Shown here one piece after another: positions 3,365 to 61,605 of a stretch of DNA of 64,000 nt. The position numbers and the translations under genes are program-made. The notes beneath the pieces are model-generated. The model saw only the letters and a program-made list of their open reading frames with translations, searched no databases and was not told the origin of the DNA. Position 1 is the first letter of the stretch. Every line of letters begins with the position of its first letter. Origin of the DNA: Isoetes taiwanensis (Eukaryota > Streptophyta > Lycopodiopsida > Isoetales > Isoetaceae); the NCBI GenBank assembly GCA_021234155.1, contig JAJEKV010000060.1, forward strand, positions 3,704,451-3,768,450. Reading direction: 5' to 3'.

Positions 3365-3975
3365 ACTCAGAAAGGGCACAGATTTGCAAGCAAATTAAGA
3401 CCTGATAGGTTGTACAAAAATGTAACAGCCTGCAACATGCATAACAGGGAAGGTGAATTTTAACAGGTCAGACATTACAAAGTTTTGGATATTGCTGTCC
3501 ATCTCACCTCATAAAGATACTAGTGGCATTTTAACAGAAAATACCAAGCCACAAATTGCTGAGAGCACAACTAAACTGAACACTTGGCAAAACTGAGGTA
3601 CAAATTGCTCAGTGCGCAATTAAACTTAACACTTGGCAATACTGAGATTTGGGAATGCAAAACGTGCTAAATTCATATGTATACAACCTCATCTCTAAGG
3701 ACTCTCTTGCACATCATGTACAAGATCTATCGTAAGGCAGGAGATTCTTGTATGCATATTTTCTCATCTGACATAATGAAGTTCATTGTGCAGCTCAATT
3801 ATTAGGATTTATGATGAAAAGACCATAATGGTTCTGTCTCGGCGATGTATGGAATAAAATAGTAGAAGCTAACTTGCTACTCATCTCCCTACTTTTTTGT
3901 ATTTAATTTTTGTTATCTAAAAATCTCATCCAGGCTTGTTATTTAAAAATTTGATGGAAAAATAATAGCAAAGTA
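3365..3975 (+). repeat. PPR 3' flank shared with an inverted copy at 59595-60478
   Basis: The 600 bases after the PPR stop match, with substitutions and small indels, the reverse complement of about 59595-60300. Shared landmarks include the run ending in AACAGGTCAGACATTACA (about 3458-3479) and the paired 'caaattgctgagagcacaac' stretches. The match shows DNA-level duplication of gene plus downstream flank rather than a retrocopy. Confidence 0.8.
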
Positions 3976-34832: not shown

Positions 34833-34837
34833 TGTGA
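34833..34837. repeat. Chromovirus target-site duplication (left)
   Basis: TGTGA directly before the 5' LTR; the same five bases follow the 3' LTR at 50961-50965. The element is therefore one insertion event with both original ends. Confidence 0.92.
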
Positions 34838-36482
34838 TGTGACGTTCCAAGGGAATATACGCCATAAATACGTATATTCCTGGACCCGTCACCATACAAG
34901 TCTACCTAGGTAGCCTTGTATGCCTTGGATAAGTGGCAAGGGGTGCACATCTAAGTTAATTGTTTAACTTAGATAACCTTAGGATAAGGCCCATTCCCAC
35001 ATGGCCTTATCCTATTGGGCAACAGCCACACGGCCTCACCTTAGTGGTGCCACGTGGCATCCCACGTGGACCCACACCTATATGAGCTCTAACCCTAACC
35101 CTAGACCCTTTTCCCTGACCTAGCACCTGAGCTCTCATCCACGTGCCCGAAACCCCGTTTCGAGCACCGTTCGTCATAGTCTAACCTGGAGCAGCAGCCC
35201 CTGGAAGGTGTGTATGATCGTAGAGGGAGCAAGCCTTCGAACCACGTCTAGGAGCATGGAGACGCCAGGGATGGGAGGAAGCGCTTCTGGAGGAGGTAGG
35301 TTGAGTAGAGTTCATGTTAGTTCATCTGGAAGTTAGCACTCCAGATGGGTTAGTGATTCGTGTCTAGAGTAGAGCCACCCTAGATCCTTTTGTTGAACAT
35401 CTTGAACCCTAATCAAGGAACCCTAACTGTTAGTTAGCTATGTATGCTTACTTAGGTTAAGATGTTCATATGATATTGATATTGATCATGATGTGATGTA
35501 TGTGATATTGGTTGATCATGTGCTCCTCTTGTATTGGGAAGGGGGGTAGAGACCTAGGGCTATATGTAGTATGTGTAGATCCCTTAGTTCCTATTAGTTG
35601 CGGCCTGTGCATAGGAACCCACCGGGCTATGGAAGCTATGATGTGACTCAGCACTACACAACGGGGCTAGAGGCAAGATGGAGGGAGGATCCCTGCCGAG
35701 TGGGGGCTTCGGGGGATCCCATAGTGGGCTAGGCTTATGGTCGGTCACTTCGTGTGGGCCGAGCATGGGTCCGACACCTCCTGGGGCAATGGTGTTGCCC
35801 TGCCTCTCAAGAGTTGCAAGTGTCAGCTTGGCTCTTGTTTTGGGGGGTTCAGTCGGGTACGAATCGTGTGTCGCCACGATTCTCTAGCCGCCCGTGGAGC
35901 CTCTAGACCCCGGGAAGGGGAGATGCAACCCTTCCTACCTCGTCGGACCAGGGAGATGCAACCTGGAGTAGTCCCAATGGGTGATGCCATGGGATTGCGT
36001 ATCCGGAAGGTTAGAGTCATGCCACAGCTTGATCTAGCCCATCTGCAAAGTATGCACAGGAGGGGCGGATGGAGTGGTCAACCCTAACCATTGTCTTATG
36101 CCAGCCTCGCCATTGTTATGACTCGGTCTGCTCTATCTTGAGGCCTATCTAGTCAGTCGACTACCCTATGTGTCAGAGCCACGGGTAGGAGCTCTCATGT
36201 TTTATGGCATATGATTATGTTCTTTGCATCTATGGATGTGCGGTTGAGCTACCCTCGAGGTAGCCTAATTGTATTGTATTGCTAGTTCTGACGTGTTTAT
36301 GCTTCCGCTGTGATAGGAGCCCATAGGGGAAGGGCGCGCAAGACACCTTCGTGTCCCCTTCCCGCACTACGGAGGTTCCAGAGTGCGGGATAGATGGAGG
36401 GCCTGTGCGGTTGTTGAGCCGGACGGGGGATTCCCTGCCGAGTGTACGGCCGGGCGCCGTATGTTTAGTAGGGAGCGTCACA
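34838..36482 (+). repeat. Chromovirus 5' LTR
   Basis: Direct repeat of 49317-50960. It contains perfect inverted repeats near the start (34852-34880; 34981-34991 with 35003-35013), two CACGTG G-boxes (35051-35056, 35063-35068), a possible TATA-like CTATATGAG just downstream (about 35077-35085) and a double telo-box (AACCCTAACCCTA, 35091). Promoter elements are inferred from motif clustering. Confidence 0.95.
34852..34880 (+). promoter_or_regulatory. LTR-terminal hairpin, conserved with compensatory changes
   Basis: GGAATATACG, nine-base loop, CGTATATTCC. The same structure is at 49330-49358. In the diverged LTR fragment at 58874-58902 the stem is AAAATATACG/CGTATATTTT with the same loop length: two G-C pairs became A-T pairs on both sides. 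This suggests selection on the pairing or on a palindromic binding site. Confidence 0.65.
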
Positions 36483-36483
36483 A

Positions 36484-36495
36484 TGGTATCAGAGC
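36484..36495 (+). other. Chromovirus primer-binding site
   Basis: TGGTATCAGAGC one base after the 5' LTR, complementary to the initiator tRNA-Met 3' end. Confidence 0.95.
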
Positions 36496-36962: not shown

Positions 36963-37050
36963 TCTTGCCACCTCATTTTCCCTCCAAACTTTTCCTCCAC
37001 CTTATCTCTCTTGATCAGCCTTACGTCACCCGTTCTCTAGACCGTTAACT

Positions 37051-38145
37051 ATGGCACGCACGGGCGCATACCAGAAGAAGGCAAAAGTACCCACCTACAC
37101 TCGATGGCGACTTAGCAGCAGGTCGCCATGTCAAGAAGATCCCTGAGCACCTTCGACCTAAGCCGGGGGAAGGGGCCTTCTCCAGCAGCAGCAGCGACGA
37201 AACCTACCATGACGTTGAGGAGGAGGCACCTAGCAGTAGCTCTTCGTCAGCAGGCACCCAGAGAACCGGAGAATCCCATCACTTTGGGCCTTCGGACACC
37301 GAGGTGGAAGAGCAGGTGGAAGAACCTGTGGAGGAGCAGCCTCAGCACCAGACCCAGGAGGCGGGCCCTTCAGTGCCCAAGAAGAAGGGCAAGGAGAAAG
37401 TTGCGGAGTGGCCGGAAGAGAGGGCTGCGAGGAAGAAGAGGGAGCGCGAGCGGGAGCTGAGGGAACAGGAAAGAAGGACGAAGAGGAGGAATGATCGGCC
37501 CCGGAGGACCGTAGTAATTGAGGAGCCTCCCCGGCGTGAAGAAGAGGAGGTGGAAGAAGGAGGAGGCGACGAGGAAGAAGAGCAGGAGGAGGACGCTGAC
37601 CCAAGGCCACCTTATCCAAAGTGGCCCGAGCCACCTAAGGTGATAAAGAAGCAGAAGGCCGGCGAAAGCGACCGTCACTCTTGGCGAGGAGCGCCGCCTC
37701 AGCCGCCTCAAGGCGATTAAGAATACCCGCCTTTGGACGAGGTATAACGACCGGCACGCCGTAACGTCCAACGCCACGGAGGGGCCAGCCACCAAAGAAG
37801 CAGCCCAAGCCGCCGCCGCCACGACCCGAGAAGCCAAAGAAGGTCCACCATGGGCCTAACTCTCCGCACGCCCGAGTTTTTCGGGAGATTAAGCACTTCC
37901 AACAGTGCACTAATCTCCTGATTAGGAAGGCGCCCTTCGAGCGGCTCATGAGGGAGGTCATGCAAGAATTCGTCACCGACTATAGGGTGACGTCGCTAAC
38001 AACTAGGGTGCTACAGGTAGCTGCGGAGGCCGAGCTCACCCAGTTGTTCGAAGAGGGAAACCTCTGCGCAATCCATGCGAAGAGGGTGACCCTGATGCCC
38101 AAGGACTTGCACTTGGCGCGTCGCATCCGCAAGGAATACCCTTGA
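37051..38145 (+). pseudogene. Histone H3-like protein encoded inside the retrotransposon
   Basis: Start and end lie in one frame (365 codons), but two small indels throw the middle into the next frame. The N-terminus reads MARTGAYQKKAK, sharing MART with H3. The middle (about 37140-37720) is a Ser/Glu/Arg-rich charged tail with acidic runs, and a proline/lysine-rich segment follows. From 37765 to 38145 the histone fold is open: FREIKHFQQ (alpha-N), [16 protein letters not shown] (alpha-1), TDYRVTS (loop 1), [15 protein letters not shown] (alpha-2), [15 protein letters not shown] and LARRIRK (alpha-3). Against canonical H3 as I remember it, about 40 of the last 64 residues match with no gap. 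HFQ..TNLLI recalls CENH3, but loop 1 has canonical length. The long tail is unlike any host H3 I know. The indels imply this copy is inactive unless translated unusually; the origin looks like capture of a host H3 or CENH3 gene. Confidence 0.88.
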
Positions 38146-38754: not shown

Positions 38755-38862
38755 GGCCTCATTTGTCATTTTCTCCCCATCTAAACTGCTCTCAGGCCTT
38801 TTGGCGATTTTCCAGCTCTCTACTCATCTTCACAAATCATTTTCCATAGCTATTCCTGTTCA

Positions 38863-40342
38863 ATGGCGCCCTCAAGCTTTGTTGTCCTCCTGATCAAGTC
38901 TTCCATGTCTTTGATCATCTCTTTGATCTCCATGCCACTCTGGCTAGAACTCCATACTACACCGACATCATTTGCCAATATGATCAGCAGATTCTACCCT
39001 GGGAAGTTAGCTTGCCACCTAGGGGAGGGAAATGGGTTTCCTTAGACTCTCTTACCCAAGCCATAGGTGGGGATCCAGGGCAAGAGTAGGTCAGGGGATA
39101 GAACCCAAACATGCCGCACTACATGACCTCGTAAGCATCATAGGCATAGATACCTCTCAGCCCAAGCGGCCTTAGCCTTGTTCATGCAAGCAGGGCAAGA
39201 CCAACCAACCAGGAGCCAAATTCAACCCTTGATTTGGCACCTCTCGACACTCCGAGGCGCTGCTTAGGTATTCCACGAGATCGAGATCATGAGTACTAAT
39301 ATTACGGCCCACATCGAAGCACCTATGTTGCATTTGAGCAGATTACGAGGAGGAAGAGGAAGAGAACCCAAGTTGGGAGATAAGGGAGGCAAGAAGGATG
39401 GAGAGGCGCCTAGCTCGGCAATAGGATGTGCTAAGGCGGGACTTGAGCCGCCAATAGGTATCATCACCCCCACCCCGGTGATCATCGGCCCACGGCGAGT
39501 ACATATTCGCCACCCACATCCTCAACCTCCCCTATTGCCCGAGGAGGGCCTCGTGGATCGACGAAGCTCCTAGGCCTAATTGCACAAGAACGGGGGTAGT
39601 GACTTCATCGACTACTCCTACCAAGAAATTCCAAGGGAAGTAGCCGAGCGACATTCCTATCACTTTGAAACTATGTCTGACATCCAGCATACCAACGTGA
39701 TAAGGCGATGTATCGCAGAAGAAGAACCCATCATTCCGTAAGAGGAATTCCGGGAGATCCAAAGCAGGTTGTACAAGCCGGAAGAGGCCCAAGCCCAAAG
39801 AGACCGGTCGCGCCCATGAGTACGCCGAGAAGCTTCTAGCAAAGATCAACTTGGAGAATGCAACTACTATGTGGAGAGACCACGAGGATCTTATGGCATT
39901 AGATATCTTCGGCGAAGCAGCTGGGAGAAGAGGTGCGGGCGCCGGGGGCGGAACCAAGGGCAAATCACTCGTGTACTATCTTCCGCCCTTAACCAAGGGG
40001 CGATGATAGTTTTCCATAAAGAATTCAGCCCAAGAGGTGAAGAGTCCGTGGCACTCCTTATAGCACTTTTCGGGCTTTGGGCAAAGATGCAGAATAGATG
40101 TGAAAGTAGACCATGTTATCCTCTTCAAGAGATCAGTAGCACTTCATGCTCTCGACTTCGCAAGGGGCCACCTCAGGGATGCGCACTTGTCAGTAGTAGC
40201 GGCAACTGCACCAGAACTTCCGGCACCACAGATGGCAAGAGCATTGGAAGGAGGATCGGCGGCAAGAATCCTACAGAACGTCGGCAAGGGCATAGGATTG
40301 AAGAATGTCAAGAACTTCTTCAAATCCATGAGGAGGCACTGA
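38863..40342 (+). pseudogene. Unassigned accessory coding block before gag
   Basis: An ATG at 38863 opens a 60-codon frame, while the neighbouring frame reads more protein-like (DHLFDLHATLARTPYYTDII, then PWEVSLPPRGGKWVSLDSL). Later pieces in shifting frames: YSYQEIPREVAERHSYHFE, EYAEKLLAKINLENATTMW, then MKVDHVILFKRSVALHALDF to the stop at 40340-40342 (...KNFFKSMRRH). I recognise no family. Total size suggests a protein of up to ~490 residues before decay. It precedes gag proper, which starts beyond 40560, so it may be an extra gene or an extended gag N-terminus. Confidence 0.45.
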
Positions 40343-40560
40343 TAAGAAAATTGCTTTGTTAATTAAGTAATTGTACTGATATTCTCTTCAGTTATTATCA
40401 TGTACTTTTATATATATTAATTAATGTCTTATCATGATCTTAACTTATAAGTGGAATTTTCATATGATTTCTTTTATGACTAACATCAATTCAATTGTAA
40501 GCAAAAATGAATACTGTGTAACTTAATAACAAGCATTGATGATTAATCCTTGCAGCAAGG
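40343..40560 (+). other. AT-rich, intron-like spacer before gag
   Basis: 218 bases, strongly AT-rich, between two GC-rich coding blocks, ending TTAATCCTTGCAG directly before coding sequence. The 3' end looks like a plant splice acceptor; no clear donor chosen. A spliced junction into gag is possible. Confidence 0.4.
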
Positions 40561-42150
40561 AACACAGGCTCAGGTTCTCAAGGCCAAGGCCGACACCACC
40601 AGTGGGTACCCAGAAACCTATTTGGACGTGATCAAGATGACAACAACGACGAAATGACGCCGGAAGCAATCAACGCAAGGCTCGTCCAGATGAGGAACCA
40701 GATGCATCAGCTGATCCACTGGGCCACCCCATTGATGAATGCCCAAGAATATGCACCTGCTCCACCACCACCTCCACCGCTACCTCAAAGAAGGCATCGA
40801 GGAAGGTCCACAAAGAGGGGCAGGACAATCGGGGAATGTCGAGACAAGAAGAGGAAAAAGGAGAAACAGTAAGGAGTCCAACACCACCTAGCTCCAGCTC
40901 ATCGCACACTTCGAGCATAGCCAAGACAGTTCTAGCTCGAAAAGTGAGTCCCGACACCCACGTAAGAGCCAGGGCAAGGAAGGAAGATGATTATCAAAGA
41001 AAGTTGACAAAGGCTATGAGCAATGTGTGGAAGACTAGGAAGTTGGATCGTTCGTATGGAAGGACAAAGTCGTATGGAGGTTTTGACGAGATGGAAGAGT
41101 TCGCAACTCTTATGGCATGAAGGATAAGGATATAGGGAAGGTTGCTACAAGAAACTTGATAGGAGCAACTAGAATCTGGTGGAAAAGCTACGAAAAGTCC
41201 AACAAGCTCAAAAGGAAATTCAGATTCAAGACCTTCAAAGAAGGCCTTTCGCAGACATTATGTGCCTAGGTCACATACTAGCGTGCAGATCCAGCCAGCT
41301 TCTACATATTGAACCGGTACCTTGTCGGTAGCAAAGTACACGAGGAATTCATGCAACTCAGTTCCATGTTCCCGGAGTTTCGAAAGGCAAGCGGTTGAAA
41401 CTTACATTGAGGGATTGAACAAGAATATCAAAAGGCTAGTCCGAGCAATCAACCCTAAGTCAAAGGGCGTAATCGGGATAAAGCCATAAGTTTGAAGAAG
41501 CTCCAAGAAACGCCAAGTGAGAGACAAATCGGCCTTCAAAGGAAAGTCAACGGGCAAAGCATCAAGGGCAAAGAATGAGTAAGCAATCAGCAGCTACGCC
41601 ATCAGGAGGCCAGCAGCAAGGAAGAGCTCAGGGTAAGAACTTTGGGGACCGTAAGCCGCAGAATGCATCAGGGGGCAGCATGTTAAAGCGTATTCTAGAC
41701 AGCCTGACGAAAGAGAAGAGACAGGAATGTATTGAGAAGAAGCTATGTTTCAGTGTGCTTCCGGCCCGTGGCAATCAACACATGATTGCCCATTCGCCAT
41801 GCAAAGGGCTTTGGCGAGCTTATGGATTGGGATTCACCGACGGGCGGATGAAGACGACGACGAAGATGAGGCCCGTGACTTCATAGATGGTGAGTGCCAT
41901 ATCCGTGCAAATATTGAGTCTCCGTGATATAGAAAAATCACGACAAAGGATTGGGTTGGCTGATGGAATCATAGATAGCAATCCATATGTAGTCCTCATA
42001 GACACAGGTAGCTCTCACAACTTCGCCTCTCCTAGGCTGGCTGCCCTAATGAAGAACAAGGTATTGAAGTCTAAGCCAAGGCCAGTTGCTATGGCAAACG
42101 GCCATTCTCGCACATTAAGGGGAGGAGGATTACATTCACATAGACCTTAG
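40561..42150 (+). pseudogene. Chromovirus gag and protease, frameshifted
   Basis: Gag pieces: INARLVQMRNQMHQLIHW and a proline run (40680-40790), capsid-like RIWWKSYEKSNKLKRKFRFK (about 41170-41230), VETYIEGLNKNIKRLVRAI (about 41395-41450), a degenerate CCHC knuckle (LCFQC...HDC, about 41745-41800). The protease active site is VLIDTGSSHNFASPRL (about 41994-42041), in the aspartic family. At least five frame breaks and several stops separate the pieces. Gag would form the particle and protease would cut the polyprotein. Confidence 0.75.
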
Positions 42151-42477
42151 TGGAAGTAAGTGGCCGATGGGGGGCGAGATCATGGAGATTGGAAGGTATG
42201 ACCTTATAGTAGGAATGGAGTTCCTAAAGCCAAATAAAGCAATGATCGATCGACCGCGACCGCAATGAAGTCGCCATGACAAAGACCGGACGGCACCACA
42301 TTCATAGTGAGAGGTAAGAAGACAAACTTCTTCTATGCAAAGTGTATTTCTTTGAAGCAACTAAAGGAAAAGTATAGAAAGAAATAAGGTGGATTACATT
42401 TTGAGATTGGAGGCAATCGGGCCCAATAAGCGTGGATGGGAATGACCAAAAGGGGAAGCAAAATGCCCAAGCCAAGA

Positions 42478-43140
42478 GCAAGGCTTATTTCAGAATTCAA
42501 GGATGTATTTCCTGATGAAATCCGAGCTACCACCTTATAGGGTGTGGAGTGTGAGATCACATTAGCACCGGATGCTAAGCCTACCAGCAAGGCACCATAC
42601 GATGAGCACACCGGAGTTGATTGAGCTCAAGAAGCAACCTCGTGAATTGCTTGAGCTTGGTTTTATTAGAGCAAGTGTGTCTCCTTTGAGCACCCATACT
42701 CTTCGTAAAGAAGAAAGATGGGAGCTTAAGAATGTGTGATAGACTATCGCCAACTCAACAAGCGCATTTAAAAGAATAAGTATGCATTGCCAAGGGCAGA
42801 TGATTTGATGGACCAGCTCCAAGGAGCAAAGGTATTCTCTAAAATTGACTTAAGGTCAGGATACCACCAAATAAGGATAAAGGAAGAAGATTAAGACCGC
42901 CTTCAGAACGCGGTATGGTCACTTTGAGTTTACAGTAATGCCCTTTGGATTGTCGAATGCTCCAGCAACTTTTATGCGCCTCATGAACGACGTCTTCAGG
43001 GATTTTCTAGATGAGTTTGTCATTGTCTTCTTCGACGACATTCTAGTCTACAGCAAGTCCATTGAAGATCATAGTCAGCATTTGAGAAGGGTGTTAGAAA
43101 AGTTGAGGCGGCATCGTTTGTATGGAAAGCTCTCCAATAT
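42478..43140 (+). pseudogene. Chromovirus reverse transcriptase, N-terminal part
   Basis: Motifs in order with frame breaks: [84 protein letters not shown], then an open frame with [20 protein letters not shown] and the catalytic FFDDILVYS. The frame is cut at ...YGKLSN by an insertion just before the expected K-C-E-F motif. Confidence 0.88.
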
Positions 43141-43929
43141 GTAGCATTATAACAGGGGGTTTTTTTTGTGATTTTATACGCTTTTTGGCATGGTTTTTAT
43201 ATGATTTCATGGGCGTATTGCACGAGGCATACTAATCAGTATATCTAGAGTGCACACTGGATTCTCATATTTAAATGGCATTTTATCTATGGTTTTGCAA
43301 TGGTTTTGCCTTGCATGTTTTTGTTCCTTAAAAACTTAATTAATTTAATTTTATGGAGGCCATGCAAGCAACGAGGCATTCAACTTTAGGGTTGGAGTTT
43401 AGGGTTCGTGGAGAAGGGATTTAGAGGACCATTTCTGGCAGTTTTGTTCTCGCTATGGCCACAGTTCTCTGATAGCTATTTGGCGATGGCATGAATGTCG
43501 TATCACACTAATGGAGCCCAGGATCAAAATTTTCTTGTCCGGCATCCAAAATCCTGGACGGGATTCCACCCGCCAATGTCTTGTCCGCCTGCCAAATCAT
43601 CAGAGAATCGTGAATAGGAGTTGCTTGCTATGAACATATCGAGTTCTTGAACAGTCGATTCGATTCGCTTTTACAGCTTGCTTGCTCGCCATGACCGTGT
43701 TTGATTTACAAAAAAATTACGGGACAAGCTTCAATTCCCCTACCAAGCTTCTAGGTTTTTACTAGTGAAGGGGATTTAGAGAACCAATAGGTAACGCAAA
43801 ACCACTTCAGTTAGCAATTCATATGAATTATTCGCCTCGCAGATGCTTTGGCATATGAATGATCTCGATTTGATTCAGATTGCCGCAGCTGCCTCGCTTT
43901 TTCGCTACTCCAAACGCTGAGAAGCTTAG

Positions 43930-44960
43930 CCGTAGATGGGCTTAACCGTTGTTGCTTCTATTCATCAGCCAAAGAAGCCAAGTTTTTGAGTTGTTTGACA
44001 ATCTCGTGCATCATCACATGGGAAAACCGTGGTCACGAGGGATGGGCTCGCGAATAAAGAAAGTTGAGTATATCTCGCATTATTACTAGCCTCGTGAATC
44101 GGTTGCAATGATATCGGGTATGCCTAATCTGAAACGCTTTGATGGTCAGGTAATGTCTTGGAGATATGCAAGATATGTCAAACCAAGTGAAGTGACATTC
44201 CTTATCGTCCTTGTCGCATGCGACCATGCAGTTTAGTGGATGAAGGACGAAGACACTTCATATCTATGAGGGAGAACCATGGCATCATACCGGATACTGC
44301 CACTACAGCTTGTATGATTGACATTCTCGGTCGATCAGATATTTGCTTGAAGCAAAATAATTTACTCCGGCGTATGAAACCGTAGATTATTTATCGGAGA
44401 TCTTTGCTTACAGCCTGTAGAACATATGGAAATGTGAAGCTAGGTCAAGAGTGCTTTGATCAAGCTATTGAACCGGATTTACACGATGCAAGTGGCTATG
44501 TTCTTATGTCGCATTTACTCCGATCTTTGTATGGTAAAAGATGCCGAGAAAATTGAAGAACTAAGGTTTCATGCACATGATTGGAAGAAATCTGCCAAGG
44601 CATGGATAGAGGTTAATAATAAGGTGCATGAGTTTATTGTTGGTGATAAAAGTCACCCCGAGTGATAAAATATCTAACATGCCGAAAATGTTAAGTAATA
44701 AACCGGTTATACACCAAAGCTTAACATGGTATTGCAAAGAAATGACGATGAACAAAAAGAAGATGCTTTGTGTGGACACCGCGAGAAGTTAGTCAGAAGC
44801 TTATGGGCTTGTCAAGACGCCTCCGTGTACTCTTATATGAGCCACGAAAAATCTTCGAAAGTGTGCATGGATTGTCATATTGGAGCGTAAACAAGTCCGG
44901 GCCGAAGATGCAGAGTTCTCGGCTCCAATATGGCGGTGCACATTCTCGGGTTCAGCTTTT
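43930..44960 (+). pseudogene. DYW-class PPR gene relic
   Basis: Fragments in order: VKPSEVTFLIVLVACDHA (about 44175-44230), TACMIDILGRSD (about 44305), GNVKLGQECFDQAIE, DASGYVLMSHL, then an E+ block IEELRFHAHDWKKSAKAW and NNKVHEFIVGDKSHPE (44600-44665), then ALCGHREKL (HxE zinc motif of DYW) and KVCMDCHIGA. The final D-Y-W is not readable. The host gene would edit organelle RNA. Many indels; unrelated in detail to the PPR gene at 491, which lacks E+ and DYW. Confidence 0.75.
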
Positions 44961-45342
44961 TGCTTTTTGTTCTTGTTTTTTTCTTGCGAAGGAGCCAGAG
45001 AGTTCCGGCCCGTGCCCCCCTGCGCCTCCACAGCCCAAGTCGCCCTTACCCTTGCTCTATGATCCCGAGCTCATTCATTTTTCGTGTTCTTTTTTCCCTT
45101 TCGCCTACAAGGCTCCACAAGTAATTTGTTTTAGTTTCATTCACCTTTTGGGTTCGACAAGTGATTTGTTTTAGTTTCATTCACCTTTTTGGTTCTGGCT
45201 ATGGACCTTTTGTGATTGCTGGAAAAAGATCTAATACTTCAAGTATTTGAAAACTATAGCATCTCGACAATCGATATTATAATACCATATCATGGTTATT
45301 TTATTACCATTTCATATATATATGTTGTTTCATATTGTATCC

Positions 45343-46270
45343 GATGTATTATTACAAAGATTTTACCCACTAAACAACTGCAGGTGTGTCAACTTGGATA
45401 TTTATAGGAAGCAAATAGAAATAATCAACACAATGAAATTGATATTTTATATCACAAGGATTTGTATGTGGAAAGCCGCAGATTTATTTCATGCTTTTTA
45501 GAAAGAAAATCATAGGAGTTTTGCATGTTTTACATGTTTCTAATGTTTGCTTTTTTTTAGGGCCCCGGGGGCCCAAAAATTTTTAGTATAACAACCAACA
45601 CATAACTACCATTAACATTAATTAACACAACCATTGGGTCCAACACATTTAAATTAAAATCCCCCTTAGACCCCCTTTGGTTTGGGTGCATATTCACACT
45701 AAGTGACGAGGGGCAGCGAGAGCCCCTATAATTATATTTTGCACGCATAAAATCAACACCATATAGTATTTTGTTCAAATCTTATAGTATTTTGCAAATC
45801 TTGTTATACAAGATAGCAAATTTTGTACTTGCATACCCCACAAACGAGGAACTTTACGTACGGTGTAGATTAAGGAATAAGAGGTGAATATGCCTATCCA
45901 ACAGCTCAGGTCTCTGAGTCACCCCGCGGTGAATATGCACCCAAACCAAAGGGGGTCTAAGGGGATTTTAATTTAAATGTGTTGGACCCAATGGTTGTGT
46001 TAATTAATGTTAATGGTAGTTATGTGTTGGTTGTTATACTAAAATTTGCCCCTTCGCCCTAAAAAAGCAAACATACGAAAAACATGTAAAACATGCAAAC
46101 TCCTATGATTTTCTTTTCTAAAAGCATGAAATAATCAGGCCTTTCCACATACAAATCCTTGTGATATAAAAAATCAATTTCATTGTGTTGATTATTTCAT
46201 TTGCTTCCTATAAATATCCAAGTTGAGCACCTGCAGCTTGTTTAGTGGGTAAATGCCGAATAATACATCG
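45343..46270. repeat. Large foldback with ~350-base arms
   Basis: The arms at 45343-45697 and 45929-46270 are inverted copies with few differences: GATGTATTAT at the left end mirrors ATAATACATC at the right, and the inner edges are GGGTGCATATTCAC and GTGAATATGCACCC. The loop is ~230 bases. No protein coded. Arms are close to each other in sequence, so it is younger than the one at 34190. Confidence 0.8.
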
Positions 46271-46279
46271 ATAACCAAA

Positions 46280-47180
46280 AGAGTGGAGTATTTGGGCCAA
46301 AGAGATCTCCAATCGACCCTCGCAAAGATTGAAGCAAAGAGTGGATTGGCCAGCCCAAAGAATGTGGCGAGGTAAGAAGCTTTCTAGGTCCCAAGGGTTA
46401 TTACAAAAGTTCGTAAAGGACTTCGCTAAGGGGGCCCCCCTTGACTCCGGACCTCACTAAGAGTGTTAAGGTGAAAGATTGGAGAACACATTGGTTAGAA
46501 AATGTCCAAGCTTCATTCTAAAAGCTTAAGGAGGCCTTAACAACAACACGACTGCTAGTTCCGCGAGATCCGCATAAGGACAAGATAGTAGCAATGTGAT
46601 GCAAGTAAGATATGTGAGTCCTTATGCGAAGGAAGAGGCAATAGCTTATGATCCAAGTTAGGTTGAACGACACCGAAGCAAAATACTTATCCAAACCACA
46701 TTCAGCAGTCCCCAGCTACGCTCTGGAAAGCCTCAGATTTGGAGGCACGACGGTTTGGGAGGGAAGCTCTCGCTAGATAATCGATCACCGTGAGTCTGTT
46801 AATACATCTTTTTACCCAAATCCACTCGGACCCAAGGCAAAGGAGGTGGATGGAATTCCTAGAAGAGTATGATCTTTGAGATTGCTTATAAGCCGTAAGT
46901 TGAATGTGGTCGCCGATGCTCTTTCTAGAAGACCTCTTGAGACCAGAACTCATTGTAATGCTATATCAACTCTTTCGAGTGGGTATGGCAAGAAAATTGA
47001 GGAGACATTACCATCTGATGGTGATTTCAAGGAGGTATGGGAAAGCCTCTCTAGGGAGGCTAGAAAACGTATAAGGAACGAAGAAGCCTTCAAGCATTAT
47101 AAGAAGGAAGGCAACTTGTTGTACCATAAAAATAAGTTGTGTGTGCCCTCGAATCGCCGGTATAAGGAAGCTAATTCTTC
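46280..47180 (+). pseudogene. Chromovirus RT C-terminus and RNase H, decayed
   Basis: VEYLGQ resumes RT, then AKIEAKSGLASPKNVAR and FVKDFAK, then RNase H traces up to RRWMEFLEEYDL (about 46838-46877) and SRKLNVVADALSRRP (about 46887-46935), the usual RNase H end. A linker (EEAFKHYKKEGNLLYHKNKL, 47080-47140) leads to the integrase zinc module, which is broken. Confidence 0.75.
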
Positions 47181-48491
47181 ATGACACACAATGTACAGCC
47201 CAATAGCAGGGCATGCGGGTTTTTTTATGAAGACCTACTTCAAGATTCAAGTAGCTACTTCCGGCCGAGAATGAAGAAGCGTGATAGCAAGATATATTCG
47301 TGGAGTGCCGGTTGTGTCGGCAAAACCAAAGCGAGCAGCTTCGAATTCCGTGGAGCTTTGGAACCTCTAGCGGTCTTAATGCGGCGGGAAGTGGTAAGTA
47401 TGGATTTTATCACAGGACTTCCCAAGACTCTTCGAGGCAAGGATGCATTGATGGTCGTAGTAGACAAATTATCTAAGATGACACATTTTGTGCCTTGTAG
47501 AACTACCGACATAGCATTAGATACTGCCAAGCTATTTGTGAAGGAGATTTTTAGGCTCCATGGCATGCCTCGGGAGATAATATCTGATAGAGATTCCAAG
47601 TTTATGAGTGCTTTTTGGCAGGACCTCTTCAGCACCATTCAGACGAAGCTCTCCATGAGCACGGCATATCACCCCCAAACAGATGGTCAGACGGAGAGGA
47701 CGAATCGAATCTTGGAAGACATGCTCAGAAGCTTTGTGTGGAATAAGCAGTCTAAGTGGGATGAGTACATCCACTTGGTGGAATTCGCCTACAATAGTGC
47801 CAAACAGGAGTCATCTCAGATGTCTCCTTTCATGGTAAATTACGGGTACCAGTGCTTAACCCCAGACACTTGGCACAATCCCGTGTCAAAGGTTGAAGTG
47901 TCCCAGCAGATGCTAGGAGATATGCAGAAATTGGTGGAAGAAGTGAGGGGTTACCTCCTAGCAGCAAGAAGTCGGTAGAAGAGTGTAGCCGACAAGCACA
48001 GGACCGTAAGAGAGTTCGAGGTAGGCGATAGCGTGTGGTTGAAGATCAAGGTCAAGCAAGCTAAGCTTTGGATTGGGAGTTGCAAGAAGCTTGCCCCTAG
48101 ATGGGCTGGTCCGTTCAAGATTTTGGAGAGAGTGGGCTCCCAAGCCTACAAGTTGGATCTTCCGGCCCATCTCAAAGTTCACAAGGTTTTCCACGTAAGT
48201 TTATTGAAAAGGCACAATCCTAACCCTGATGAGGTCTTGGATACTCCAACTTTGTTGGAAATGACGGAGGAGCAAGTTGAAATCGTGCCTGAGTTACTTC
48301 TTGATAAGTCATTCAAGAAGACTAGGAGGTCTCAGTTCCTCCAGTATTTGGTCAAGTGGAAACACTTGCCCGTGGAAGACGCGACATGGGTATTGAAGCA
48401 GGATTTGGAGAAGCAATACCCAGAATTTATGAAGGAGTTTGATGGGCGAGTCGTCTCCGACTTGGTCGACCCCGACTTGCCAGGAGGTTAG
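47181..48491 (+). pseudogene. Chromovirus integrase with C-terminal chromodomain
   Basis: One frame with a single TAG at 47976-47978. Catalytic core: VSMDFITGLP (D), EIISDRDSKFMSAFW (D) and YHPQTDGQTERTNR (E). Then AYNSAKQESSQMSPF, LAPRWAGPFKILERVGSQAY and HKVFHVSLLKRH (GPY/F module) and a chromodomain-like end: VEIVPELLLDK, FLQYLVKWKHLP, DATWVLKQDLEKQYPEF. In chromoviruses this domain steers integration to marked chromatin. The TAG probably replaces a glutamine codon; everything after it is open to 48491. Confidence 0.9.
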
Positions 48492-49316: not shown

Positions 49317-50960
49317 TGTGACGTTCAAGGGAATATACGCCATAAATACGTATATTCCTGGACCCGTCACCATACAAGTCTACCTAGGTAGCCTTGTATG
49401 CCTTGGATAAGTGGCAAGGGGTGCACATCTAAGTTAATTGTTTAACTTAGATAACCTTAGGATAAGGCCCATTCCCACATGGCCTTATCCTATTGGGCAA
49501 CAAATTACCACGGCCTCACCTTAGTGGTGCCACGTGGCATCCCACGTGGACCCACACCTATATGAGCTCTAACCCTAACCCTAGACCCTTTTCCCTGACC
49601 TAGCACCTGAGCTCTCATCCACGTGCCCGAAACCCCCGTTTGGGCACCGTTCGTCATAGTCTAACCTGGAGCAGCAGCCCCTGGAAGGTGTGTATGATCG
49701 TAGAGGGAGCAAGCCTTCGAACCACGTCTAGGAGCATGGAGACACCACGGATGGGAGGAAGCGCTTCTGGAGGAGGTAGGTTGAGTAGAGTTCATGTTAG
49801 TTCATCTGGAAGTTAGCACTCCAGATGGGTTAGTGATTCGTGTCTAGAGTAGAGCCACCCTAGATCCTTTTGTTGAACATCTTGAACCCTAATCAAGGAA
49901 CCCTAACTGTTAGTTAGCTATGTATGCTTACTTAGGTTAAGATGTTCATATGATATTGATATTGATCATGATGTGATGTATGTGATATTGGTTGATCATG
50001 TGCTCCTCTTGTATTGGGAAGGGGGGTAGAGACCTAGGGCCATATGTAGTATGCTCCTAGTGTAGGTCCCTTAGTTCCTATTAGTGCGGCCTGTGCATAG
50101 GAACCCACCGGGATATGGGAGCTATGATGTGACTCAGCACTACACAATGGGGCTAGAGGCAAGATGGAGGGAGGATCCCTGCCGAGTGGGGGCTTTGGTG
50201 GATCCCATAGTGGGCTAGGCTTATGGTCGGTCACTTCGTGTGGGCCGAGCATGGGTCCGACACCTCCTGGGGCAATGGTGTTGCCCTGCCTCTCAAGAGT
50301 TGCAAGTGTCAGCTTGGCTCTTGTTTTGGGGGGTTCAGTCGGGTACGAATCGTGTGTCGCCACGATTCTCTAGCCGCCCGTGGAGCCTCTAGACCCCAGG
50401 AAGGGGAGATGCAACCCTTCCTACCTCGTCGGACCAGGGAGATGCAACCTGGAGTAGTCCCAATGTGATGCCATGGGATTGCATATCCGGAAGGTTAGAG
50501 TTATGCCACAGCTTGATCTAGCCCATCTGCAAAGTATGCACAGGAGGGGCGGATGGAGTGGTCAACCATTGTCTTATGCCAGCCCCGCCATTGTTATGAC
50601 TCGGTCTGCTCTATCTTGAGGCCTATCTAGTCAGTCGACTACCCTATGTGTCAGAGCCACGGGTAGGAGCTCTCATGTTTTATGGCATATGATTATGTTC
50701 TTTGCATCTATGGATGTGCGGTTGAGCTACTCTCGAGGTAGCCTAATTGTATTGTATTGCTAGTTCTGACGTGTTTATGCTTCCGCTGTGATAAGAGCCC
50801 ATAGGGGAAGGGCGCGCAAGACACCTTCGTGTCCCCTTCCCGCACTACGGAGGTTCCAGAGTGCGGGATAGACGGAGGGCCTGTGCGGTTGTTGAGCCGG
50901 ACGGGGGATTTCCTGCCGAGTGTACGGCCGGGCGCCGTATGTTTAGCAGGGAGCGTCACA
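49317..50960 (+). repeat. Chromovirus 3' LTR
   Basis: Near-identical to 34838-36482; differences are scattered substitutions and short indels (near 49503, 49637 and 50040). Ends CGTCACA, followed by TSD TGTGA at 50961-50965. Confidence 0.95.
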
Positions 50961-50965
50961 TGTGA

Positions 50966-56040: not shown

Positions 56041-57290
56041 AGAAAAGGAATTACCTGAATAAAGTCTTCCACATTATCCAGATGTCCTGCTCGTCTAAAT
56101 GTATGAATTAGACATCCATAATGCTCTACTGCTGGCATCACACTATGATCTCTACTCATTGAAACAAAGTAGTTATGATCCCCATTGACCAAGGGAGCAA
56201 AACTGCATGCACAAAGAATTCCAATGAATGTTATCTTATCTTGCTTTACATCTTGTTGCATCAATTGAAAAAGATGTAAATCCTGCTTGGCATTTGCATG
56301 CTGAGCATATAATGAGATCATGGAATTCCAGGAAAACAATTTATGCTCCTCCATTTTATCAAACATCCTTTGGGCATCATCTACACATCCAAACTTGCTA
56401 TACATGTTTAGAAGTAGAAATGCAATCACAACATTCATGTTTTGTTCATCGATCATGTTGTGGACATGTTTACCTCTATCTAGAGCTTTCAAAGTAGCAC
56501 AAACGTAGAGAATGTTATTACAAAAGTAACGATGTCTGGTTAGGTATCTTTGGCCGCCATCTGTTGGTTGAGAGTAAGAGCACCATTGTCGTGCCCATTT
56601 TAGTTATATATTCCTATATTGTGTTCCATGATGATACATCACATTGAGGAATCGCATTATACTGTTGGCCTCATCAATGCTTTCACCCTTCCTGATAAGA
56701 GACTTGCAAAGAGCAACATCTAGGACAAAATTTAATTCTTTTGCAATTAAGCTTGCATGAATTAATCTGCCAGTGTATGAGCAGTAAGGGCATTTATGAA
56801 CGATACCTTGTCTGGAAGGCTAAGTTGTTTGAACATATTCTACAAAACTACAAGAGCCTGTTTGTGATACCCATAATGCACATAAGCAGCAACTGCTAGA
56901 TTCCAGGATATTACATCTTTGTAAAGCAAATGATCAAATACCAATTCGCATGTAAACATTCACATTTGCCGTAGAGGTCCAGAAGTGCATTCCCTACAAA
57001 GGTGTCTGTTGCCAAAAGATTAGAAATAGCATGAGAATTTCCACCTGCTAATTCTGCATCTCGTTTTATTCCTTCCATTTGCATTTGATTAAAAAACTGC
57101 AAAGCTCTCTTGGCATGTCCACAACTCCCAAATGCTGTAATCATGGAATTTCATTCGATAATATCACATTCTTTATTTCTCGCAAATAAAATATGAGCAT
57201 CATTCACCATCCCCATATTTCCATACATGTTCCAGTCTTCTTTTAAGAATGAAAGCATGAATAAGTTTACCCTCTTCTAGTGCTAGAAAA
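56041..57290 (-). pseudogene. PPR pseudogene 1, inverted partial copy of the PPR gene
   Basis: Read right to left it matches the intact gene from about 1788 to 3155. The best frames are HNMIDEQNMNVVIAFLLLNM, FDKMEEHKLFSWNSM and KITFIGILCACSFAPLVNGD (56028-56492), and MITAFGSCGHAKRALQFF at 57144. Internal deletions (for example about 1845-1873 of the gene) and frame breaks. Its 3' side is joined at 56036 to the duplicated block, missing ~850 bases that pseudogene 2 still has. Confidence 0.9.
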
Positions 57291-58759
57291 ATCTTTATTG
57301 ATTGCATTGCTCTATTATATTGGGCATGTTTGACTCCTTTTCCTTTTTAGCTTGTGTTGCTAGGTTTGTTAGATCCTATTACGAGAAACATCTTTCTGCT
57401 TGCATGGATATATTATATTTGGGCACTTGTTTTGACTTTCTTACTAAAAACTTTTCTGCTTGCATTGTACAATCACTATAGACTATATTAAACCTATTTT
57501 CCTCTTTGCCATTCTGGTTTGATCTTGTGGCTCTATAGTTCTTCCGATAGAGTGGCTCATTCTTCTGATAGAGTGGCTCGTCTCAAAACGTTTTCTTTGT
57601 GTCATAGGGACTTAGTAACTTTGTGTTATCCTTTGACTTGGTATTTTTTATGGTTTCTCAAGGTATTGTCTTGGTATTGTGGTTGGGTTTTGGTGCTGTC
57701 TAGGGGTATCGACATTAGACTTTTTTTGTTTAGCACACTCCTTAAACGTTACGTTGCTTCGTTCAGTTCTAGGAACATGTAGGGGTTTTTTCATCACACA
57801 TGGGATTCAATGCTGTGGTTTGAAGGTTATTGCATGCGCATGAGCAATGGATTAAAGATCGACGAGAAACATTCTCGTCTTAGGTCGGTTTGCCTTTTTC
57901 TTCAACTTTGCCATCTTTTCTGAGTATTGACTCGAATTGACCTCGCCCTCCACTTTGAGTTCGAATGCATTTCGAACTGTTTTCTCCTTTACCTTTGAGT
58001 GGATTTTCCTTTGCCCCTTTTTCCCGCCCTGATCATTCATTTTTCCTCCGGGTTATTTTTCTTCGATATAAAAATTTATCTTTTTTCGCATTTGTCAACC
58101 TATTAGCTAATGTGCAGTTACAGAGCAAGAGGATTTTTGTCTTTTTCGTAGATGATTTTACAAACACAATGTCTCTCAATTTCCTATATCAGACTCAATT
58201 TCCTACAAACTGCAACGGTCCAGGTGAACTTCTATGTTCATTATTATGATGTTTCTAGAGCCAGAACTAATCGAATGCATGACAACAATGGCCTCTATTT
58301 TACCTTTGTTTCTATCTTCATATTAGCATATGATACTAATGAGACTGTGGCATATATTGCGTACATATAGTAATCAATTCAAAATGCCAAAATTATGTGC
58401 ACCCTATAGACGATATAGAAGACATGAATGCAATGGGCCCATTAGACTAAAAGCGTTTGTGCCTTTATTGCTAGCTTTGTCTACAATACATAAGAAGCTA
58501 AGCACTTTAGACCATCCAGCAAATTATAATTAAAATGTTTTAGAAAATACAAGAAAACAAAATCATTCTGTGGGTCTATTAAGCCTTCCTTCTTGGGAAT
58601 CATAGGTTCATTGCTATTGCACAATAAATTTAAATTGTTGAGCTGGTAATATCATTTATCAATGTTCCAATGATATGACACCTAACTCGCTTTGATGCCC
58701 ATATTATGCAAAGATTGTAGATGGCACCCCTGCGTTTAGCACCATACCTAAGGTTGGCT
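57291..58759. other. Spacer without recognised genes
   Basis: T-rich on the plus strand. A frame of 87 codons at 57519-57782 contains a duplicated SSDRVAH/R motif and no known domain. Nothing else recognised. Confidence 0.4.
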
Positions 58760-58917
58760 AAGGTTCTATACGTAAGGTTGGCTAAGTTAATATATATAAT
58801 GACTTAGCCATGCCCCCTCCCCACAGTAATACATACAAGGCTACTAAGGTAGACTTGTATAGTGATGTGGGCTAAAATATACGTGTTTATATCGTATATT
58901 TTAAAAGAACATCACAA
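58760..58917 (-). repeat. Diverged chromovirus LTR start
   Basis: The reverse complement from 58917 reads TGTGATGTTC, the hairpin (58874-58902), then CACTATACAAGTCTACCTTA and GTAGCCTTGTATG, matching the first ~110 bases of the chromovirus LTR with many substitutions. Only the LTR beginning is present. Confidence 0.75.
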
Positions 58918-59620
58918 AGCACAAGGAATTCCCATCGAAGGTGGGCAATTTCCTAGTACAAGATTTTAGTGGCTCTGCTAAAAAGTTCAACAAGAACTCA
59001 ATTTCACTTTCCAAATTTGAAGAGATGCAAACTTTTTGATGTCTTCACATTGTATACATCCCTCACATTCCAACACATATCTATCTATATAGACCACAAA
59101 TGTTGCTTACTATCCAAAAAAACACTCTTGTGTATACATCCCTCACATTCTAACAACATATCCATCTATGTAGACTACAAACGTTGCTCCAAAAGAACAT
59201 TCTTGTTGATTTTGAATACTGCTTAAGATTTTTACGAGCACAAGCAAATACTACTACTCCATATACAATGCTCTTTGCAATTCCATGATTCATCCTCCTT
59301 TCCATCATCTTCAGCAAATGTGACCAACCATGCCATTACACACTATTTTGACTTTGATTGGTTGAATCATACAACTGTGCTAGATTTAGTGAAATTCAAC
59401 GTCTTCTACAAGGGCTACCTCAACATCTTTGCTTATTCCAATAATTGTTATCGGCTAAGTCTTTTAGTGCATTCTTTGATGGGGTACACTTCTTCTTACT
59501 ACACATTCCACAATATACAAATTCAAAATACATTCATTTACCTTCTTCATATGTCCACAACCCTTCTTTTTCTCTCCCAGCCCCTGCCTGAAGCCTGCCT
59601 TACTGCTAGTTCCATCAGAT
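58918..59620. repeat. Duplicated block, copy 2
   Basis: Matches 55290-56035. Ends in a 47-base direct duplication (AGATTTTTAGATAACAAGCC with AGCCTGCCTTA, at about 59595 and 59642). Continues into the PPR 3' flank homology (to 60478). Confidence 0.8.
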
Positions 59621-60477
59621 TTTTAGATAACAAGCCTGGAGCCTGCCTTATTGCTAATTCCATCAGATTTTTAGATAACAAGCCTAGATAAGATTTTAGA
59701 TAACAAAATTTAACGGCGCAGATAGATGATTTGTCTTTTAGTAGCAAGTTGAAGTTAGCTTCTACAATTTTATTTCATGTGGTATATTATAAATTCTAAT
59801 AATTGGACTGCGCAATAAACTTCATCATGTAAGATGGGAGAAATGCATATAGGAATATCCTGAATATCATGCCTTATTATAAATCTTGTATATGATACGG
59901 CAAAAGTGTCGTTAGAGATGGGTTACACACATATGAATTTAGCACGATCTGCATTTCCCAAAATCCAATGTTGCCTAGTTTTTATTTAAGTTGTGCTCTG
60001 AGCAATTTGTGCCTCAATATTGCCAAGTGTTCAATTTAGTTGTGCTCTCAGCAATTTGTGACTTGGTTTTTTTGTTAAAATGCCACTAGTAACTTTCTGA
60101 GATGAGATGACCAGCAATATAGGTTTATGGTAGTGGCAAGGATCCAAACACTGTAATGTCTGACCTGTTAAAATTCACCTCCCATGTTCTGCATGTTGCA
60201 GGCTTTTACATTTTTCTACAACCTATTAGGTCCTAGTTTGCTTGCAAATCTGCGTCCTTTCTGAGTTCATGTTTAAACCTATATGATTGGAATGCTCCAA
60301 AGAGCATTGCACTGTGATTGAGGCTGAGGTTGTCAAGGGTATATCTCAGGCGTAAGTGTTCAAAAGTGTTGTATATGCAGTAGAGTTATATTGGATCCAA
60401 TTCTAAAATTTTCTCACTACCTTGTTTCTCATTGTTGTAACTTCTGCATGCATCATGGAGCATTATCTAGACAATGG

Positions 60478-61605
60478 TATTGTCCTGAAAAGGAATTACC
60501 TGGATAAAGTCTTCCACATAATCCAGATGTCCTGCATGTCCAAACATATCAATTAAGCATCCATAATGCTCTACTGCTGTCGCCACAGCATGATCTCTAC
60601 TCATTGAAACAACGTAGTTATGGCCAATGCATGCACAAAGAATCCCAATGCATGTTATCTTATCTGGCTTTACATCTTGCTGCATCAATTGAAAAAGATG
60701 TAAAGCCTGCTTGGCATTCCCATGCTGAGCATATGATGAGATCATGGAACTCCAGGAAAACAATCCGTGCTCCTCCATTTTATCAAACACCCTTCGGGCA
60801 TCATCTACACATCCAAACTTGCCATACATGTTTAGAAGCAGAAGTGCAACCACTCTTTTAAGAATGAAAGCATAACTAAGTTTACCCCCTTCTAATGGTG
60901 GAACTCTGTATATCTCAAGCGAGATGTGGTTAATGTGGCCGGCCACATTAACCACTGGTTAATGTGGCCAAAAAGTGGTTAATGTGGCCAAAAAAGTGGT
61001 TAATGTGGCCAAAAAGTGGTTAATGTGGCCAAAAAACCAGGCTTCAAACTGCGCGGCGGGGGCAAAAATTTCAATCGGCTGGTTCTTTCTACTCCATGGG
61101 CAGTTTGATTCGATCTAAAAACCATGCCAATCACTTTGTCTGCTCCTTTTATGCTAGATTGCTGAAGAGAGGAAGAGATTTGATGCAGAATGGAGCCAGA
61201 TCGACCAAAAAACGCCAAAAACAGTTAGTTTTTAGGCTACAAACCGCGCTGTTCTTCGTGGCTGATACAGGTGGCCACATTAACCACATCTCGCTTGAGA
61301 TATACGGCGTTCCCTTCTAATGCTAGTATATCTAAAACTGTGATGAATGTAATCTGGTTTGGCTTCACTCCTGTGGCTTGCATTTCTTTGAAGCAGCGGA
61401 TACTTTGCTTCTTACACCCATAGTTTGCTCATTGCAGTCCAAGGCACCACATCCTTCTCTTTCATCTGATCAAAGACTTTTTGAGCTTCCACCAAACTAC
61501 CATAGTTGTCATACAACTTACGAAGGGCATTTCCAATATTTACATGAGGCTTCAATCCACTATTTATAAAATGCGCATGCATACGCTTACCCTCTGAGAA
61601 AGCCT
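60478..61605 (-). pseudogene. PPR pseudogene 2, split by a Mutator-like element
   Basis: Right to left: 61605-61323 matches gene positions ~1500-1790, then the insertion, then 60888-60846 matches ~1798-1840, then a deletion jumps to ~2758 and the match continues to the E motif and 3' flank. Frames such as FDKMEEHGLFSWSSM and HYGCLIDMFGHAGHLDY are readable. The post-IYA sequence at about 60240-60350 is the same as in the intact gene. Deletion and frameshifts exclude function. Confidence 0.92.
60898..61313. mobile_element. Non-autonomous Mutator-like element, 416 bases
   Basis: Terminal inverted repeats of ~41 bases (60900-60940 and 61273-61313; core CTCAAGCGAGATGTGG) differ at two positions. 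Flanked by perfect 9-base CTTCTAATG at 60889-60897 and 61314-61322; the intact PPR gene has this site once (complement at about 1791-1799). 9-base TSD and long TIR fit a MULE. Next to the left TIR the sequence GTGGTTAATGTGGCC is followed by its own inverse, then by four tandem GTGGTTAATGTGGCCAAAAA units. No transposase. Confidence 0.9.

Follow-up and report, generated by a model that had tools for sequence, protein, structure and literature searches.

A histone H3-like gene under purifying selection in a family of Ty3/gypsy chromoviruses of Isoetes taiwanensis

We report that a family of Ty3/gypsy chromoviruses in Isoetes taiwanensis carries an open reading frame (ORF1) that encodes a histone H3 fold and that is under purifying selection. 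In our reading, ORF1 is an H3 variant gene that was captured long ago from a host H3 gene, probably not from the centromeric variant CENH3, and has been kept since; its most likely use would be to make element chromatin a poor substrate for silencing, and we give this reading a probability of about 0.5. That H3 was acquired long ago and has been maintained by selection is indicated by the copies of the family, by the dN/dS ratio of the fold and by a second group of H3-bearing ORFs. The window considered here is a stretch of 64,000 nucleotides of genomic DNA, for which a sequence-only reading had proposed a complete H3 fold inside a gypsy element flanked by a target site duplication (TSD). This location is correct: the fold lies between the primer binding site (PBS, from 36484) and pol.

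The element in the window is a chromovirus of ~16 kb in which LTRs, TSD, PBS, reverse transcriptase, integrase and chromodomain are all present (Table 1). Its two LTRs are 97.4% identical over 1656 columns (22 mismatches and 12 gap openings), and we take the PBS (TGGTATCAGAGC) to be of the tRNA-iMet type. Decay in this copy has hit ORF1, ORF2 and pol. The interruption of pol extends over about 43200-46300 and contains an inverted repeat (45578-45685/45940-46047) and, as suggested by eye, a fragment of a PPR gene (VHEFIVGDKSHPE). The chromodomain, for which 'Chromo domain protein 1' (2dy8) is the closest solved match, seems on a by-eye reading to be missing two cage aromatics, the H3K9me cage of type I chromodomains having three; the two chromodomain types are described in the available passages of PMC6317226. 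Elsewhere in the window, the direct repeat pairs 13450-15527/18472-20533 and 6986-7536/11932-12491 are probably further LTR elements, and long inverted and direct repeats (84-97% identity, three stretches) are found at 1499-3655 and 56042-61603. A possible related LTR at 63.1-63.7 kb led no further: the match covers just 142 bases and no such PBS accompanies it.

Table 1. Features of the chromovirus in the window (positions are those of the window).
Feature	Position	Strand	Remarks
Target site duplication, left	34833..34837		TGTGA; equals 50961-50965
5' LTR	34838..36482	+	termini TGTGACGTTC...GCGTCACA; ends read from sequence
Primer binding site	36484..36495	+	TGGTATCAGAGC; exact in 35/40 sister copies
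ORF1, H3-like gene remnant (start, charged linker, H3 fold)	37051..38145	+	frameshifted in window copy
H3 histone fold of ORF1	37765..38145	+	open up to stop; PF00125 E=2.5e-31
ORF2 remnant	38862..40362 (ends approximate)	+	sister copies ~507 aa, MAPSSFVRWYN...; broken in window copy
Probable gag region	40543..41883	+	by position only; open stretches without Pfam match
Aspartic protease	41887..42265	+	PF13650 E=1.1e-5
Reverse transcriptase fragment	42881..43141	+	PF00078 E=5.3e-19
Integrase core	47175..47975	+	PF00665 E=1e-9
Integrase C-terminus and chromodomain (about 48288-48443)	47979..48488	+	PF24626 E=1.4e-23, PF00385 E=1.1e-11
3' LTR	49317..50960	+	pairs with 5' LTR
Target site duplication, right	50961..50965		TGTGA

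The completeness of the H3 fold was borne out by profile searches. The frame 37765-38142 (126 codons) is open and matches the Pfam core histone family at E=2.5e-31 (108.9 bits against a cut-off of 26.4), which rules out a chance ORF, and the best relative in a search of solved structures with the window fold is histone H3 (E=1.4e-30); among the best 60 of 176 solved matches, 59 are named H3 and one only 'histone domain-containing protein'. Alpha-N, the three helices and the H3-type C-terminal bundle are all found by sequence. Compared with a host H3 gene, 55 of 92 fold residues are identical, which is near the 40/64 estimated by eye, and the 37 differences of the window copy compare with 34-39 across 39 copies of the family. 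The C-terminal bundle of the window copy (H3 residues 108-131) matches host H3 at all positions but 119, 124 and 125. The fold retains R49, R63, K64, R69, R72, R83, K115, R116, T118 and K122 of H3 and is altered at K56 (K56Q), F84 (F84V), E94, Y99 (Y99E) and 87-90 (SAVL to LTTR); its C-terminus reads KEYP where host H3 has GERA. The sequence-only reading had joined a MART start, a charged tail and the fold in one frame. This does not hold for the window copy, whose parts lie in different frames: the ATG at 37051 (MARTGAYQKK) meets a stop after 31 codons, the charged tail is open in a different frame (37049-37717) and the fold follows from 37765. It does hold for sister copies, which start with MARTKQTARK.

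We searched the genome of Isoetes taiwanensis (1,658,258,908 bases in 1,110 sequences) for further copies, henceforth referred to as group 1. With the fold as the query, all 150 candidates that were scored, among them the window's own copy, gave matches of 89-100% identity, and a stop was noted in 13 of them (hand count). With a 3 kb DNA query reaching from the LTR end to ORF2, 39 of the 40 scored copies, again including the window's own, align unbroken from the LTR end at least as far as the H3 stop; the remaining match ends 13 bases before it. The H3 segment is present in each copy examined; because both queries include H3, neither can reveal copies that are without it. First-look candidates, which are unscored and do not represent copy numbers, amounted to 9,897 (fold), 9,022 (H3.1), 7,073 (CENH3) and 5,017 (DNA). 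We fetched 40 of the 150 loci, drawn from roughly the top 85 rows and chosen mostly for long frames. In the 31 fetched copies with both PBS and LTR end, the PBS starts two positions past the last LTR base, and the ATG of ORF1 lies 557-588 bases past the PBS (23 copies measured). A single frame of 360-385 codons leads from MART to the end of the fold in 27 of the 40 copies; the other 13 are without such a frame of at least 330 residues. Intact ORF1 consists of MARTKQT[A/Y/G]RK, a charged linker of ~270 residues and the H3 fold, the linker being made up in turn of a serine-rich and acidic/basic part, a conserved stretch and a PK-rich stretch. In copy L009, for example, the conserved stretch covers about residues 205-250 (by eye) and the fold begins at residue 279 of 370. 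The canonical N-terminal tail is absent, and group 1 keeps only H3 residues 1-10. An AlphaFold model of the whole ORF1 protein was poor (mean pLDDT 52.5). In a second copy, read as two pieces about 3.1 kb apart, the H3 ORF is followed downstream, on the same strand, by a single open frame that combines integrase H2C2, core and SH3 with a chromodomain; this frame is 93% identical to the window, and its integrase core scores 21.3 bits against a Pfam cut-off of 32.6. Overall, the 27 single frames and the 39 collinear DNA matches confirm that an intact H3-like ORF sits at the same place in many copies. A one-off processed pseudogene, for which a match of >95% to host H3 would be expected, is rejected by the identity of 55/92 and by the many copies at one element position, in agreement with the earlier judgement that the frame is no plain processed H3 pseudogene.

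A further frame, ORF2 (~507 aa), starts some 690-790 bases past the ORF1 stop in group 1 copies. Nine of the 40 copies keep it open for 450 aa or more and give a dN/dS of 0.151, the other 31 being left out of this ratio; three of the 40 have no downstream frame of at least 110 aa. ORF2, which is seen for instance in L011, L021, L032 and L042, gave no match in Pfam or PDB. A low-confidence AlphaFold model (mean pLDDT 37.7) suggests repeated strand-strand-helix units at GGKWVSLDSL, DGEEYIFANDIL and other places. Scans of IMG/VR with the ORF1 and ORF2 alignments returned 47 and 69 pattern matches, respectively, and no confirmed relative. Among 23 copies (4 of 27, without an exact PBS, were left out of the leader comparison), divergence is 0.28 in the non-coding spacer behind ORF1, 0.16 in the LTR, 0.12 in the non-coding leader and 0.44 at synonymous sites of ORF1; the low values of LTR and leader could reflect recombination between copies or a function of the leader. 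Since the leader of the window copy contains at least four ATGs, translation of ORF1 by simple scanning is doubtful.

Purifying selection acts on ORF1, and most strongly on two of its parts, the fold and the MARTKQTxRK tip. For the fold, dN is 0.031, dS 0.64 and dN/dS 0.048 (741 pairs from 39 group 1 copies; copy L036, whose frame is too short, was excluded, as were 19 saturated pairs from the dS mean), and the pooled ratio is 0.056 with a codon bootstrap of 0.031-0.089. The corresponding ratio is 0.047 for host H3.1 versus H3.3 and 0.028 for seven copies of the second group. By region (27 copies), dN/dS is 0.040 for the tip, 0.167 for residues 11-40, 0.161 for 41-200, 0.126 for 201-245, 0.170 for 246-278 and 0.057 for the fold, so that the dN/dS comparison proposed earlier yields about 0.05 for the fold and 0.13-0.17 for the linker; because copies were chosen for open frames and for similarity of the protein, dN is lowered in these figures, and dS is not raised. 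Fold variants common to at least three copies comprise 17.5 nonsynonymous and 79.5 synonymous changes, against 30 and 44 among singletons; in the linker the numbers are 97 and 154 for common variants and 254 and 120 for singletons. Such a pattern is what a gene gives that is selected in a replicating lineage and drifts in dead copies. Nonsynonymous sites of the fold differ at 0.03 (27 copies), as against the 0.28 of the spacer. If H3 had been captured by chance and were useless to the element, as in fungal hAT copies that decay, the broken window copy and the 13 fetched copies without a MART-to-fold frame would be expected; we nevertheless consider such a passenger very improbable, as fold dN/dS is 0.03-0.06 at dS 0.41-0.64, shared nonsynonymous variants are depleted, and the fold is retained in both of two groups whose N-terminal parts are very unlike each other.

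The second of these groups came to light with an Arabidopsis H3.1 query. Of its 150 scored rows, the top 15 are 136-residue H3 matches at 96-98%, and the other 135 match at 71-86% in frames of up to 567 codons. We read two of the 15 and eight of the 135 (L049-L056); up to 135 rows may belong to group 2. The ORFs of group 2 encode 409-430 aa from the likely start, with a different N-terminal domain fused to the H3 fold. Seven of the eight begin with MA[I/N][T/I]K[S/R]APDP, and the eighth, L056, has an identity of about 45% with the two copies it was compared with. All eight folds are nearly canonical (77-81/92 identical to host H3), and none of the eight copies has the ARTKQTARK tip at its N-terminus. 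Between groups 1 and 2, ORF1 is 40% identical over 215-219 columns, fold included. One group 2 locus (L057) also encodes a homologue of ORF2 (blastp E 2.7e-8 to 1.5e-12 with eight queries; 20-23% over 451-471 columns), and because both frames are alike across the groups the ORF1-ORF2 pair looks like an old unit. No gypsy pol was found among the open frames of this single locus of 8.9 kb, and none of three PBS strings in the 395-504 bases upstream of the likely starts of the eight group 2 copies. A 684-codon frame on the minus strand of L057 (6665-8716) encodes a divergent reverse transcriptase with a weak RVT_1 match (E=0.0015); it is probably a separate insertion and, by its motifs, perhaps Penelope-like.

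The phylogeny against H3, H3.3 and CENH3 that had been suggested with the sequence places the element folds nearer to H3 than to CENH3. In this tree (92 columns; rooted at the midpoint only, with a bootstrap that had not settled), all 48 element sequences fall together with a support of 94/89, just under the starred level, and three H3 rows adjoin them. Arabidopsis CENH3, a single row on a long branch, lies outside. Group 1 has full support and a branch length of 0.85; neither group 2 nor the H3 rows form a single group. Because the dN/dS of the fold is higher between the groups (0.17-0.20, with dS saturated in 106/273 and 22/39 pairs) and the branch of group 1 is long, there must have been a period in which the protein changed faster. 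Descent from CENH3, in which a centromeric chromovirus would have taken up a histone that targets centromeres, would account for the letters HFQ..TNLLI that are common to the element and Arabidopsis CENH3. We regard it as extremely improbable: identity is 41/92 to CENH3 versus 55/92 to H3, loop 1 has the canonical H3 length noted earlier and is two residues shorter than that of CENH3, and the elements group with H3 in the tree. On an overall reading of the 150 scored rows of the CENH3 query, no host CENH3 stood out. As far as sequence comparison reaches, descent is thus shown to be closer to H3 than to CENH3, and a single capture from H3 would be the simplest, if not a proven, reading.

The retained tip of group 1 raises the possibility that it is the active part of the protein, the fold serving only as an anchor. 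As a mimic of the histone tail, MARTKQTARK would be methylated or bound by H3K4/K9 enzymes and readers or by the element's own chromodomain, and would titrate silencing factors or join the integrase to chromatin. Consistent with this, K4, Q5, T6, R8 and K9 of the H3 tail (K5, Q6, T7, R9 and K10 with Met counted) are kept in all 27 copies in at least 12 DNA spellings, and the synonymous divergence of residues 5-10 is 0.69; MART was part of the copy choice and these five residues were not. The tip has a dN/dS of 0.040, as given above, and the same element encodes a chromodomain. However, fold and tip are under similar constraint, which for the fold exceeds the needs of an anchor, the eight group 2 copies are without such an N-terminal tip, and the chromodomain seems, by eye, to be without two cage aromatics. 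Moreover, A8 (Met counted) is Y or G in 8/27 copies and the serine behind K9 is lost in 27/27. We therefore consider a tail mimic unlikely. Seven of the 27 copies (e.g. L025, L042 and L047) form a sublineage with MARTKQTYRK, in which H3 A7 near K9 has become Y.

Retroelements are silenced via marks on histone H3. We favour a reading in which ORF1 leads to fewer silencing marks. The protein, presumably translated from the element RNA as its first long ORF, would pair with host H4 via the H3-H4 surface, as the kept residues suggest, and with H3 or itself via the retained four-helix bundle, and by binding DNA would enter nucleosomes. Such nucleosomes would have no K14 to K36 tail and, in the case of group 2, no N-terminal ARTKQTARK either; as most of the usual tail would be missing, element DNA that is new or lies nearby would be packed into chromatin that accepts silencing marks poorly. 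At the same time, element proteins could be recruited by the long linker or by the fused domain. Judged from the sequence, entry into H3-H4 complexes is likely and entry into nucleosomes somewhat likely, the latter being uncertain because contact or interface residues are changed in the window copy (K56Q, F84V, Y99E and 87-90). We prefer fewer silencing marks because both groups combine the fold with a replaced tail, even though group 1, with its K4/K9 tip kept, agrees less well than group 2 with an evasion of silencing. A different use would be that of a tether, the ORF1 protein in nucleosomes or on H3-H4 bringing the pre-integration complex to chosen chromatin through the linker or the fused domain. 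The conservation of the linker (dN/dS 0.13-0.17) would fit this, as would N-terminal parts that differ between the groups in the way adaptors would, and the presence behind ORF1 of ORF2, which reaches at least 450 aa in 9/40 group 1 copies and is recognisable in one group 2 locus; the integrase already carries a chromodomain, which speaks against it, and we think this use improbable, to a similar degree as mimicry. Tail mimicry and tethering are rivals of the reading by fewer silencing marks, and could act together.

More broadly, and more tentatively, we propose that an old plant retrotransposon lineage keeps H3 as a working gene and builds nucleosomes of its own specification. The tail would then take two forms, an ARTKQTxRK tip left bare at the end of a long linker in one group and a fused N-terminal domain in the other. 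If this is true, an LTR element brings its own chromatin to escape silencing or to protect or steer its DNA, and an element-supplied H3, with its tail mostly replaced and a host-like constraint on its fold, would amount to a direct attack on the silencing layer or to a new way of choosing integration sites. The copies would also offer a natural, diverse series of H3 variants selected for something other than host needs. In genome annotation, element copies can inflate H3 counts.

The element gene shares with host H3.1/H3.3 (L058, L059) the fold, the four-helix bundle and the start of the tail, and differs from them in that the tail after K9 is replaced by the ~270-residue linker. Core histones of viruses (the doublets of Marseillevirus and the H4 of bracoviruses) are alike in that a selfish genome carries its own core histone; their carriers, however, are free viruses, whereas the window element is an intracellular retroelement with H3 alone. 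In the open-access literature (most subscription journals and preprints lying outside this scope) our searches brought up no histone gene in any LTR retrotransposon. For plant LTR retrotransposons, extra ORFs ahead of gag have been described, among them the plant mobile domain, Transposase_28 and Athila ORF-1 (PMC6317226), and ORF1 resembles these as a sense extra ORF between LTR and gag of a Ty3/gypsy element; in the available passages of PMC6317226 the sole use of 'histone' concerns chromodomains, and in PMC7264820, also on extra ORFs of plant LTR retrotransposons, the word is absent. As far as the available passages go, the precedents for an H3 borne by a transposable element are fungal hAT DNA transposons. 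H3L of Pyrenophora tritici-repentis (PMC3538342) is, like ORF1, an altered H3-like gene on a mobile element; it is expressed, has tail insertions and changed helices, is neither H3 nor CENH3, and occurs in 26 very similar copies, for which the authors suggest drift. In Pseudocercospora fijiensis (PMC6710886), H3 was captured by a hAT element and 784 TE-borne H3 sequences are reported, a likeness to the many copies of the window family; all copies except the original are described as RIP-inactivated and mostly truncated, and the captured transcript as without retained function, whereas in the window family the fold is under purifying selection. The hAT transposase and terminal inverted repeats (TIRs) are absent here, and LTRs, reverse transcriptase and integrase are present instead. 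In contrast to Pyrenophora H3L, on a DNA transposon with TIRs in a fungus, the gene described here belongs to an LTR retrotransposon in a plant and combines deep diversity with purifying selection; it is thus found in another class of element, with evidence of selection that the available passages on the fungal precedents do not contain.
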